DNA of 64,000 nt from Acidobacteriota bacterium (GTDB lineage: Bacteria > Acidobacteriota > Aminicenantia > JBFLYD01): the NCBI GenBank assembly GCA_040756905.1, contig JBFLYD010000065.1:1-64000 (forward strand), given 5' to 3'. The translations under genes were made by a program, and so were the position numbers. The notes beneath the pieces were generated by a model that did no database searches, had not been told where the DNA came from, and saw only the letters and a program-made list of their open reading frames with translations. Positions within the stretch are counted from its first letter, which is position 1. Each line of letters opens with the position of its first letter. Positions 4,307-50,492 of the stretch are shown in pieces.

Positions 4307-4327
4307 ATTTTTGTTCTATTCTAAATA

Positions 4328-4904
4328 AAGAGGTCAACCATCTTCTGAGCGATATATTGACGAGCATCTTAATCTCTAAGAAATACTTGATTCTAAACGC
4401 CGAACATACATTAGTGAGCAGGAAGGGTGGCGGAGAAACCGAAGGTTCCTGAAAACCGTCACGAATGCGTAGCGGGCATGGTTTTCTCACTTATTTTAAA
4501 GTATAAGTGAAATTAAAACCAATAGAAGATAATGTTTTTTGAATTATGCATAAGTTATATATTCTTTCCCTTTTTAATAAGTGAGGGGGGGGTGAAGCAT
4601 GAGTGCTCCCGCACTAACTATATTTATTCCAAAAAAATTAAGTGATTGAAGTAGAGATATTCTTAATTCCTTAATTTATAGCAAACGCATAAAATATTGT
4701 TACATGTAGGGCAAGGCTTTAGCCTTGCATTAAGCAACCCCCGATCAAGTTCGGGGCAGGCTCTAAAGGGTTGCCCTACAATTTATTCAATGCGTTTGTA
4801 TTAGGTAATAATAAGTTAGTGCGGGACGAAGTCACCCTTGCTGATCACTGTATAAAAGTATAAGAGAAACTATCTTCTGAGCGAAGGGGATGGTTGACCT
4901 CTTC
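4328..4904. repeat. Composite of R1-family repeat arms around an R3 insertion, copy R1c
   Basis: The 635-base gap 4307-4941 holds no convincing gene. It begins with AAGAGGTCAACCATCTTCTG at 4328 and ends with the inverted arm GATGGTTGACCTCTT at 4889-4904. Inside are GTGAGCAGGAAGGGTGGC (about 4415-4433) and TCACCCTTGCTGATCACT (about 4832-4849), which are the two R1 ends seen also at 7630-7763 and 50155-50492. An R3 repeat (4682-4806) sits between them, so mobile repeats have landed inside one another. Confidence 0.65.
4682..4806. repeat. R3-family palindromic repeat, copy b
   Basis: Left end GCAAACGCAT then TGTAGGGCAAGGC; right end GGGTTGCCCTACAATTTATT then CAATGCGTTTGTATTA. The outer CAAACGCAT sequences are inverted copies of each other, so the element has terminal inverted repeats of about 10-12 bases around a palindromic core (AAGGCTTTAGCCTT, CCCGATCAAGTTCGGG). 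Confidence 0.75.
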
Positions 4905-4941
4905 TAAAAAACTCGTATTGGTTACTAATTTTTCAATATTT

Positions 4942-7629: not shown

Positions 7630-7763
7630 AGCAAGGGTAACCAGAAAACACGCTGTATTTTTCCACCAATCTAAATAAATTAAAAGAGGTCAACTATCCC
7701 CTTCGCTCAGAAGAGAGTTGACCTCTTAATTTAAGTCTATATTTCAGGTCACCCTTCCTGCTC
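7630..7763. repeat. R1-family MITE-like repeat, short copy a
   Basis: Ends are GCAAGGGTAACC (7631-7642) and GGTCACCCTTCCTGC (7747-7761), imperfect inverted repeats of each other. In the middle AAGAGGTCAACT (7684-7695) pairs perfectly with AGTTGACCTCTT (7716-7727). The outer part AACCAGAAAACACGCTGTAT recurs inverted in the copy at 50155-50492. It lies in the divergent gap 7543-7852, which otherwise holds only upstream sequence of the two glycosidase genes. Confidence 0.7.
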
Positions 7764-17312: not shown

Positions 17313-17348
17313 AGAAAATAGAAAGTGTTTCGTTCACCCAAACCTATT

Positions 17349-17533
17349 GTCGTGTCACTTAAATATCTTTCGTTAGTCTTATGTGACACGACACTTTCCC
17401 TATGGGGGCAAGCCCCCCTTAGACGCTTCGCTGAGCACCCCCAGACATGGGGAAGGTCTCTTCCCCATACCCCTTCGAGTGTGCTTCAAGAGAAATATAT
17501 TGTTTGTAAAGAAATTTATGTGACAGCACACTA
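17349..17533. repeat. R2-family structured repeat, copy 1
   Basis: A 185-base element occupying most of the gap 17313-17630. The first stem is TGTCGTGTCAC...GTGACACGACA. The second is GGGGGCAAGCCCCC. Then comes TTAGACGCTTCGCTGAGC, and a third stem ATGGGGAAG-GTCT-CTTCCCCAT. It ends GTGACAGCACAC, an approximate inverted copy of its start. On the minus strand AGGGA lies 7 bases before a GTG that opens the phrase SHKTNERYLSDTT. Open frames here are by-products of the repeat. Confidence 0.8.
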
Positions 17534-17630
17534 GATGTATGATATTATATGTAGTTAGAACCATATTTATGATTCAACACACTATAAAATATTTCACGAT
17601 TTTTAAATTAATCTAAATGGAGAAATCTAA

Positions 17631-20949: not shown

Positions 20950-21591
20950 TTAAACTTTTTTATTGTTTTTAAATTTTCTCAAGTATCCAACCAATTTTTT
21001 TAAAGCTTTTCCCCGATGACTGATTGAATTTTTCTCATCTATATTCATTTCTGCAAATGTTTTGTCCAACGGAGGATAGAAAAACACTGGATCATATCCA
21101 AATCCCATTTTTCCTCTTGGCTTTTCAAGAATTACCCCATCCACTTCTTGTTTTGTCTCAAAAATTATTATTCTTTCATCGGCAAGAGCAAGCGCGCATA
21201 CAAACTTTGCCTTTCTCTTTTGGTAGGGAATACCTTTCATTAAATATAACAATTTTTCAATATTCTTTTTACTATCTCCTTCGCTACCTGAAAATCTCGA
21301 TGAATATATTCCTGGCAATCCATTAAGAGCCTCAACAATCAATCCCGAATCCTCACCCAGAGTCATCAGATTGGTCTTTTTATTCCAGAAAATAGCCTTC
21401 TTTCTTGCTATTTCTAAAAAGCTCCTTCCTGATTCTAAGAATTCATTTCTCAAATATAATTCATGGAGACCTATTATTTTGAAAGGAAGATCGGAAAGGA
21501 AACTTTTTATCTCTTCAATCTTTCCCAGGTTAAAACTTGCAATCAATAGTGTTGTGTCACTTAAATACCTTTTGTTATTTTGATGTGACAC
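20950..21591 (-). CDS. rdgB: RdgB/HAM1 XTP/dITP diphosphatase, 5' end supplied by an R2 repeat
   Basis: Hydrolyses dITP, XTP and ITP to keep them out of DNA and RNA. The normal N-terminus LLIASFNLGKIEEIKSFL is followed by GEDSGLIVEALNGLPGIYSSRFSG and GKMGFGYDPVFFYP, with SHRGKALKKL near the end, all family motifs. The core begins at TTG 21546, which has no ribosome site. The nearest plausible start is GTG 21591, preceded by AGGGAG, and both lie in R2 copy 2. That start adds about 15 repeat-encoded residues (MSHQNNKRYLSDTTL). The open frame extends further, to 21669, but that is repeat sequence. It is followed closely by the Crp/Fnr gene. Confidence 0.87.
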   Translation of the reverse strand: MSHQNNKRYLSDTTLLIASFNLGKIEEIKSFLSDLPFKIIGLHELYLRNEFLESGRSFLEIARKKAIFWNKKTNLMTLGEDSGLIVEALNGLPGIYSSRFSGSEGDSKKNIEKLLYLMKGIPYQKRKAKFVCALALADERIIIFETKQEVDGVILEKPRGKMGFGYDPVFFYPPLDKTFAEMNIDEKNSISHRGKALKKLVGYLRKFKNNKKV

Positions 21592-21786
21592 AACACTCTC
21601 CCTATGGGAGAAAGATCTCCTTAGACGCTTCGCTGAGCACCCCCAGACATGGGGAAGCTTCTTCCCCATGCCCCTTCATTGTGTTTTATTCTAAAGTATT
21701 TATTTGTGAAGATATTTATGGAAAAGCACAATAGTGTTGTGTCACTTAAATACCTTTTGTTTTTCTTTTGTAACACGCTACTTCCT
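21549..21786. repeat. R2-family structured repeat, copy 2 plus a partial tandem copy
   Basis: The full copy 21549-21733 has stem 1 GTGTTGTGTCAC...GTGACACAACAC, stem 2 GGAGAAAGATCTCC, the TTAGACGCTTCGCTGAGC block, and stem 3 ATGGGGAAG-CTT-CTTCCCCAT. Immediately after it stem 1 restarts (21734-21786: GTGTTGTGTCACTTAAATAC) but decays. Compared with copies 1 and 3, stem 1 differs at paired positions with pairing kept. The element abuts rdgB and provides its start region. Confidence 0.8.
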
Positions 21787-21813
21787 CTCCCTATTTTTAA
21801 CCTTAAGTATAAA

Positions 21814-24292: not shown

Positions 24293-24451
24293 TTCCTAAC
24301 ATGACTAAATATTAAAGGAAATTAATTTTAAGCACAATAGAATTGTCAATTATCATTAATTTCTATTATATTATCTCCCGCATGTTTTTATTTTATATTC
24401 CTTTATTTTTCTTGGGTGCTGTCCCCTAAATATCTTAACAAACAAATTTTT

Positions 24452-44047: not shown

Positions 44048-44088
44048 TTAAACAAATTAAAGGTAAAAATAGCTTTGATGATCCTAAT

Positions 44089-44266
44089 GTCATGTCACTT
44101 AAATACCTTTCGTTATTTTTATGTGACATGACACTTTCCCTATGGGAGAAAGATCTCCTTAGACGCTTCGCTCCCCCAGGCTGGGGAAGGGATCTTCCCT
44201 ATATCCCTTCATTGTGCTTTATGAGAAATTGTTTATTTATAAAGATATTTATGGGATAGCACACTA
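44089..44266. repeat. R2-family structured repeat, copy 3
   Basis: Stem 1 is TGTCATGTCAC...GTGACATGACA, stem 2 GGAGAAAGATCTCC, then TTAGACGCTTCGCTCCCCCAGG and stem 3 GGGGAAG-GGAT-CTTCCC. It ends ATAGCACAC. It lies downstream of the fabD stop (44278) and could also act in 3'-end formation. On the minus strand the AGGGA and ATG start unit is preserved (ATG TCA CAT AAA AAT AAC). Confidence 0.8.
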
Positions 44267-49862: not shown

Positions 49863-50120
49863 TCATTTCAATTTTTCTTTCTTTTTTTCATCTCTTAGAA
49901 GATAATAAATTTCCCAGCTGAGTTCATTAACAAGACAATCTTTACAGGATTCTATAATTTTTAAATCCCCTTCTTGTATTTTATTGCTTATAATTTTCTT
50001 TATTCTGCTTCTAATCTTATATAGCAAAATAAAATTTATCATCTCTTTTGATATTATAAACTTTTCCTTTATTTGTAAATATTTAGAGGACAACCATCTC
50101 TTGGGGGATATACAGAGCAT
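49863..50120 (-). CDS. Hypothetical short protein, possibly a gene remnant truncated by an R1 repeat
   Basis: The open frame of 85 residues has no family I recognise. Its first 25 residues (LCISPKRWLSSKYL...) come from a decayed R1 arm (about 50085-50125). A likelier start is the internal ATG giving MINFILLYKIRSRIKKII. The C-terminus has SCKDCLVNELSWEIYYLLRDEKKK, with a CxxC-type pair. It may be the tail of a gene cut by the repeat, since the PASTA-rpe pair usually has rsmB- or fmt-like neighbours, which are absent here. Confidence 0.3.
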   Translation of the reverse strand: MLCISPKRWLSSKYLQIKEKFIISKEMINFILLYKIRSRIKKIISNKIQEGDLKIIESCKDCLVNELSWEIYYLLRDEKKKEKLK

Positions 50121-50154
50121 CTAATAAATAGATAAGACATAAACGAAGAAAGAA

Positions 50155-50492
50155 GTGAGCAGGAAGGGTGGCATGAAATATAAATCTAAATTATTAAGAG
50201 GTCAACTATCTTCTGAGCGATATATCGACGAGCATCTAAAAATCTGCGAAGTGAGTGAGAATAATCTTCTATATTTATTCTATCGAAAGAGAAATAATAT
50301 AACGAACGGGAGCGAGAGAGAATATAGAAGATAAGAGAAGATAAGACCTTGAGTGATAGGAGATTATTTGAACGAACGAGCATAGATTTTGATGCGAGGA
50401 GATCTGAGGGAAGGGGATGGTTGACTTCTTCTAATTCATTTAGATTGGTGTGGAAAATACAGCGTGTTTTCTGGTTACCCTTGCTGATCACT
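50155..50492. repeat. R1-family MITE-like repeat, long copy b
   Basis: Ends GAGCAGGAAGGGTGGC (50157-50172) and GGTTACCCTTGCTGATCAC (50473-50491) are imperfect inverted repeats. Inside, AAGAGGTCAACTATCTTCTG near 50199 pairs with GGATGGTTGACTTCTTC near 50417. The interior (about 200 bases) is rich in GAGCGA/TCTTCTAT inverted pieces and has no gene. It fills the gap 50121-50591, upstream of recJ. Confidence 0.7.

Follow-up and report, generated by a model that had tools for sequence, protein, structure and literature searches.

Palindromic repeats that code in frame have been known chiefly from Rickettsia. Rickettsia palindromic elements are described as lying in frame inside unrelated protein-coding genes, where they are read as a similar peptide (PMC10969869, citing Ogata 2000). 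In Coxiella, QMITE1 and QMITE2 are MITE families of about 50 copies; several genes stop at the element edge (PMC5896051, Table 2), some insertions are internal and in frame (PMC5896051), and the discussion in that paper treats insertions at the 5' end of functionally known genes as lacking or rare. The RU-1, RU-2 and ERIC-type repeats of enterobacteria encode peptides that have become part of host proteins, in the case of Yersinia wbbJ at the N-terminus (PMC2759123), and no mention of a unit of Shine-Dalgarno (SD) sequence and start codon was found in the text of PMC2759123. In the open-access literature, no direct report of an SD or start supplied by a MITE was found.

The repeat family described here, R2, resembles the Rickettsia elements, as far as the cited description of them goes, in being a short palindromic repeat with tens of copies and in-frame insertions in coding genes, and it is unlike them in its host lineage, its length of 186 bp, its clear target duplication, its inverted termini and its several insertions at first codons and stop codons. 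Like the Coxiella QMITEs, R2 is found at the ends of genes whose stop codon lies at the element edge; unlike them, it has cost four genes their first codons. From the RU-1, RU-2 and ERIC-type repeats it differs in sequence and host. Phenomena of this class have been described before; to the extent of these analyses, the R2 family, its target and a recurrent loss of first codons are new.

Three full copies of R2 lie in the window, the whole stretch of 64,000 nucleotides that was analysed, from an Acidobacteriota bacterium. All are on the plus strand: copy 1 at 17345..17534 (minus strand AGGGA-AAGTGTC-GTG, VSHKTNERYLSD), copy 2 at 21547..21733 (AGGGA-GAGTGTT-GTG, VSHQNNKRYLSD) and copy 3 at 44085..44266 (AGGGA-AAGTGTC-ATG, MSHKNNERYLSD). 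The earlier note had described AGGGA, then GTG, GTG or ATG, and then codons for SHxxNxRYLSD on the minus strand of these copies, and this holds, with a spacing of 7 nt in all three. Copy 2, a full element of 186-187 bp with its left end at 21547 (nhmmer and blastn over the genome), is read on its minus strand into rdgB, and its frame continues unbroken into LLIASFNLGK of RdgB, as had also been noted.

Searches with nhmmer and blastn covered the genome, which comprises 2.56 Mb in 69 contigs and is 97.8% complete, and the stretches around the copies were analysed. About 75 copies of R2 were found, 56 of them full (174-200 bp); R2 was found neither in 60 relatives nor in 141 other genomes of the class. 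The 186-bp element is built of a left hairpin (13-bp arms AGTGTYRTGTCAC and GTGACRYACACT), a right hairpin that ends in GCACAC and, between the two, a core holding two smaller hairpins; its outer ends are imperfect inverted repeats (TGTCGTGTCACTTAAATA and TGTGCTGTCCCATAAATA), and an autonomous element would be expected to have its transposase ORF between TGTCGTGTCAC and TGTGCTGTCC. Five copies sit inside a different dispersed repeat that also occurs without the element, so that the occupied site ..ACATTCTA-TTGTCG....GCACACTA-TTTTTGCCCC can be set against the empty site ..ACATTC-TA-TTTTTGCCCC, also written ACATTC-TA-TTTTTGCCCCTCAC; occupied copies carry TA on both sides. Of the 35 copies flanked by TA on either side, 24 had the same base following TA at the left and the right end (mean of the shuffles, 11.9; 24 was not reached in any of 5000), and 16 copies had identical 4-mers other than CTAG at both ends (CTAT, CTAC, CTAA, ATAG, TTAG, CCAG and CTGG). 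These matching bases and 4-mers therefore indicate that R2 duplicates about 4 bp of a CTAG-like target centred on TA; a duplication of TA only was dropped in favour of NTAN, since the following base also matched.

MITEs of the IS630/Tc1 kind that target TA, such as Correia and RUP, are non-autonomous and have terminal inverted repeats and TA at the insertion site. R2 is unlike these in that the matching bases reach NTAN and that the genome carries no IS630-type (DDE_3) transposase. No transposase of PF13358, PF01609 or PF13546 was found in the 97.8% complete genome, and the search for a transposase with R2 ends, which covered the IS630, PF01609 and PF13546 types, returned none; the case for mobility is for this reason built on footprints. 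R2 has many short dispersed copies without a transposase gene, terminal inverted repeats, and a target duplication together with empty sites, and judged by these features it is a non-autonomous, MITE-type mobile element that is specific to its lineage. A structured RNA family was considered and rejected, as no Rfam match in the window exceeded the gathering score.

Some members of the family are longer, at 341 and 370 bp, and have exchanged cores; others are shorter, namely single hairpins of about 52 bp and two-hairpin forms of about 88-105 bp. The longer variants were found at L111:10016-10385, L073:4983-5352, L082:4977-5345, L103:6370-6710 and L109:5162-5504; between the same terminal hairpins, the two carry different, exchangeable cores. 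The two-hairpin forms were found at L124 (C22:57416), L078 (C23:14687), L069 (C7:9796) and L117 (C63:3810), and two of them lie in frame just past the signal-peptide-like N-termini of a GH116-like protein and a protein of beta-lactamase fold. The dispersed repeat that serves as an R2 target (TTAATACAAACGCACAAATATTTGTTACATTC..CCCCTCACCCCCG..) was located at L112:2558-2651, L119:12876-12970, L074:10018-10109 and L089:4541-4638, with one more copy inside the TPR gene of C38. Further dispersed repeats unrelated to R2 (AGAGGTCAACCATCTTCTGAGCGATATAT..) occur in the window at 4325-4382, 4855-4922, 7665-7732, 50081-50250 and 50403-50450, and a weak match to the right end of R2 (E 0.004), on the minus strand and lacking the left end, lies at 24414-24450.

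One frame of R2 on the minus strand is open, frame A (LVCCPINIF..KHTEGVWGRGFPMSGGCSAKRLRRSFSHRESVVSHQNNKRYLSDTTL), and insertions in this frame therefore leave genes readable. Open reading frames of at least 100 aa that read outward from the left end on the minus strand numbered 14 in frame A and 2 and 0 in the other frames. Whole elements are read through in a 957-aa ORF (C9), in a glycosyl-hydrolase-like 1033-aa ORF with two elements and an 865-aa ORF (both C47), in a TPR protein (C38) and in a prepilin, MKQ|L-KGFTLIE (C57), and an in-frame insertion in a plus frame was found in ATP synthase subunit b, MKA|RLVLV (C43). A solved-structure search with the glycoside-hydrolase-like ORF of C47 gave no match. 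Frame A is also open throughout in the 370-bp copies and in one of the 341-bp copies, which lies within a coding gene. In sixteen genes of 150 aa or more, the stop codon is a TAG placed exactly at the R2 edge; by phase, gene ends at the edge numbered 17 in phase 0, one of which reads TGG, and 3 and 5 in the other phases. Selection on the frame A peptide was rejected, as pN/pS among the long variants was 0.77, no different from the other frames (0.60-1.23); frame A is therefore tolerated, and not evidently selected for its peptide. The pattern is one of tolerance inside and at the edges of genes, and in about a dozen genes besides rdgB, R2 replaces the start or sits harmlessly in frame.

At rdgB, the native part of the gene, which encodes a Ham1-family ITPase, occupies 20950..21546 on the minus strand (Pfam PF01725, E=1.2e-56, model positions 1-184 of 186). 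Position 1 of the Ham1p_like model falls on the TTG codon at 21546, which is residue 43 of the 241-aa open frame, so that the onset of the conserved domain coincides exactly with the edge of copy 2. The minus-strand ORF 20950-21669 fuses MGKKLPHVWGCSAKRLRRSFSHRESVVSHQNNKRYLSDTTL to LIASFNLGKIEEIKSF.., with no stop between the repeat and LLIASFNLGK. The RdgB homologues of 37 of 40 same-class relatives align from about the TTG 21546 point, and in the relatives with a clear start (N-termini such as MIDLLIATNNNGK, MHKILILSTKNPGK and MVKKKLLIATTNQGK) the protein begins about 3 or more residues ahead of the equivalent point; from these clear starts it follows that about 3-4 native codons are missing here. 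The proposal that the repeat had replaced the native start region of rdgB is borne out, and the loss of the first codons in favour of an N-terminus apparently written by R2 is well supported. The gene is present in a single copy and encodes the only RdgB in the genome.

The element at rdgB is not alone. The full copy that the earlier note had recognized stands, and a second, partial copy with its own SD and a GTG at 21776 had been overlooked directly upstream, at 21732..21790 on the plus strand. This reduced copy comprises the left hairpin plus AGGGAGAG only; it reads AGGGAGAGGAAGTAGC-GTG, and its peptide ends in KRYLSDTTL as in the full copy. The full copy is flanked by the target duplication ATAG (CTAT on the minus strand), at 21546..21549 on the left and 21731..21734 on the right, and therefore entered between the half copy and rdgB. 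Its net length of 185 is one base short of a codon multiple, so that the frame from GTG 21776 no longer reads into rdgB. What remains of that frame is a minus-strand leader ORF at 21621..21776, with the SD AGGGAGAGGA, the peptide VLQKKNKRYLSDTTLLCFSINIFTNKYFRIKHNEGAWGRSFPMSGGAQRSV before its stop and an opening cost of 6.1 kcal/mol; it ends 29 nt ahead of the GTG at 21591 and is one base out of phase with rdgB. The history of the locus thus comprises two nested insertions and not one.

The mobility signature, copy number, junctions, frame, loss of native first codons and the three parallel loci discussed below were read directly from the sequence; from these we infer the order of events, the start used and its coupling. 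An R2 element would first have entered the first few codons of rdgB. This copy would then have decayed to the half consisting of an SD and the left hairpin, which may have supplied the SD and GTG 21776 in frame with LLIASFNLGK; judging by the junction, the product before the second insertion would have read VLQKKNKRYLSDTTL-LIASFNLGK. A full element would next have entered at the CTAT where the half copy met rdgB, after which RdgB would have to start inside the full copy, most probably at GTG 21591. Ribosomes finishing the leader ORF 29 nt upstream might melt the structure there and re-initiate at GTG 21591.

The candidates for that start differ in their surroundings. GTG 21591 (21589..21591, minus strand) would give the product VSHQNNKRYLSDTTL-LIASFNLGK, beginning (f)M-SHQNNKRYLSDTTLLIASFNLGK, and is the only in-copy candidate with a well-spaced SD, the AGGGA at 21599..21603 on the minus strand. 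The start lies in the left terminal hairpin of copy 2 (21548..21597, 13-bp arms), and the AGGGA lies in a second hairpin, CUCCC-AUA-GGGAG. An alternative ATG (21667..21669, minus strand) stands 1 nt after AAGGGG, within a GGGGAAG/CTTCCCC hairpin, and the TTG at the repeat edge (21544..21546, minus strand) has no SD. In the genome, an SD precedes 40% of genes versus 15% of random sites, and AGGGA at a spacing of 7 is not its usual form. On the predicted RNA, opening the site would cost 24.8 kcal/mol at GTG 21591, 18.1 at ATG 21669 and 16.5 at TTG 21546, compared with 3.4-13.1 kcal/mol (5-95%) for 101 SD-bearing reference genes, all of which fall below GTG 21591. The earlier note's claim that rdgB uses this start is unproven as stated, because the start and its SD are both base-paired; GTG 21591 is a plausible start for RdgB.

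The same values bear on the idea that, from the second insertion onwards, rdgB has had little or no expression and is becoming a pseudogene, which would fit the occlusion of all three in-frame starts; we regard this as unlikely, since the RdgB domain is of full length with a strong Pfam score and no other RdgB is encoded in the genome. Slightly less probable still is a start at TTG 21546 in which folding of the left hairpin, situated between AGGGA and the TTG, would place the SD close by. In the fold, the TTG is for the most part free of pairing (P 0.65), and looping out the hairpin would leave AGGGA about 4-5 nt from it; such a start would, however, make the protein about 3-4 residues shorter than in the clear-start relatives, and a looped SD is unworkable at the glycerate kinase and zinc-ribbon loci, which have no start codon just past the edge.

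A more serious contender, if a doubtful one, is translation from GTG 21776 in the half copy through the full copy, with about 75 extra residues, in which case the broken phase would reflect an assembly error or slippage in the G5 run or hairpin loop. GTG 21776 has the best SD and a normal accessibility, the sister locus on C18 has the same half-plus-full layout and is open throughout, and six full R2 copies are read through in coding genes. Against this, the assembled frame from GTG 21776 ends at a stop at 21621, and a shorter C/G run or loop is common among R2 copies, so that the base count of copy 2 is plausibly real. A G5 run is a weak slippage site, which counts against slippage. If one base had been miscounted in sequencing or assembly, the true sequence would have one long ORF running from 21776, and the inner start would then be unneeded. 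On balance, we lean slightly towards the account as a whole, in which R2 is an element of the MITE kind, rdgB received nested insertions, and a start at GTG 21591 would be aided by coupling to the leader ORF.

Three further genes had their first codons cut off by R2, and in all of them the joint is in frame A; as read from the sequence, every start-donor locus is a single case from a single genome. In a glycerate kinase gene (C47:21713; homology from residue 6 of 1x3l), a half element follows ATG TTA GA, the upstream ATG now runs to TAA, and the element supplies the sole ATG, GTG or TTG ahead of the domain, a GTG that follows GAGGG by 7-8 nt. A NagK/BadF-type kinase gene (C18:11132; homology from residue 4 of 8zo3) has half and full copies as at rdgB, open throughout. 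At a zinc-ribbon ORF (C23:35848), whose Pfam match is weak and below the cut-off, the separated upstream ATGG meets a stop, and the only in-frame start is the element's GTG. If frame were irrelevant, four of four joints in frame A would be expected in about 1% of cases (one third to the fourth power).

Across the family, AGGGA or AGGAA followed at 6-7 nt by ATG or GTG was found in about 43 of the 56 full copies, and the frame of the unit was open to the repeat edge in 28 of 56, both counts including five GTGTTGTG copies counted by hand. That only half keep the unit open speaks against the simple reading in the earlier note. In about 15 of 56 copies, a stop follows right after the start. Window copies 1 and 3 have no gene in the unit frame: copy 1 is intergenic, between trehalose-phosphatase-like and AlaX-like genes, and copy 3, likewise intergenic, sits 12 nt away from a fabD-like gene, on its 3' side (names by inspection). 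A simple model in which every copy donates a start to its neighbour was rejected, as the genes at C14 (HU/IHF), C43:30183 (CusB-type), C63:13643, C37:11536 and C21 keep their own ATG just past the element, mostly with their own SD as well. The gene for a CusB-type efflux adaptor at locus L093 is accompanied by two R2 copies (C43:28881, C43:30183), one immediately ahead of the gene's own SD and the other extending into the gene's 3' end.

The start codon is also part of a structure. The arms of the left hairpin covary (for example, C-G 45 and T-A 10, or G-C 29 and A-T 19), with 675 Watson-Crick pairs versus at most 637 in shuffles, and the alternation of G and A at the first base of the start codon is one such covarying pair; the structure therefore explains the retention of this base as well as translation would. 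The suggestion that the unit could switch on adjacent genes is not supported as a general rule, because in about a quarter of the full copies a stop directly follows the start, the first base of the start codon varies together with its partner in the stem, and several copies stand just ahead of genes that have a start of their own; most copies are not upstream of a start-less gene. It is rather probable that the SD-start unit is a by-product of the palindrome, without meaning save at the few loci where selection kept a gene joined, which agrees with the covariation, the early stops and the lack of purifying selection on frame A. This is compatible with the main account and denies adaptation only; the joining of all four stripped genes in frame A speaks against it. 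More tentatively, R2 may have been shaped to be harmless to translation, with ends that keep TAG at stop codons, one open frame and a portable SD and start, and at least four genes (those for RdgB, the glycerate kinase, the NagK-type kinase and the zinc-ribbon protein) may depend on starts made by the element.

If this is true, the left end of R2 re-starts genes whose first codons it separates. Automatic annotation of the start codons of genes joined to R2 can be expected to be unreliable. The R2 family, from a lineage other than Rickettsia and with its empty sites, clear target and several genes that have exchanged their first codons, makes it directly testable how a mobile element enters essential-looking genes without killing them, and likewise how a gene loses its native start codon and acquires another.
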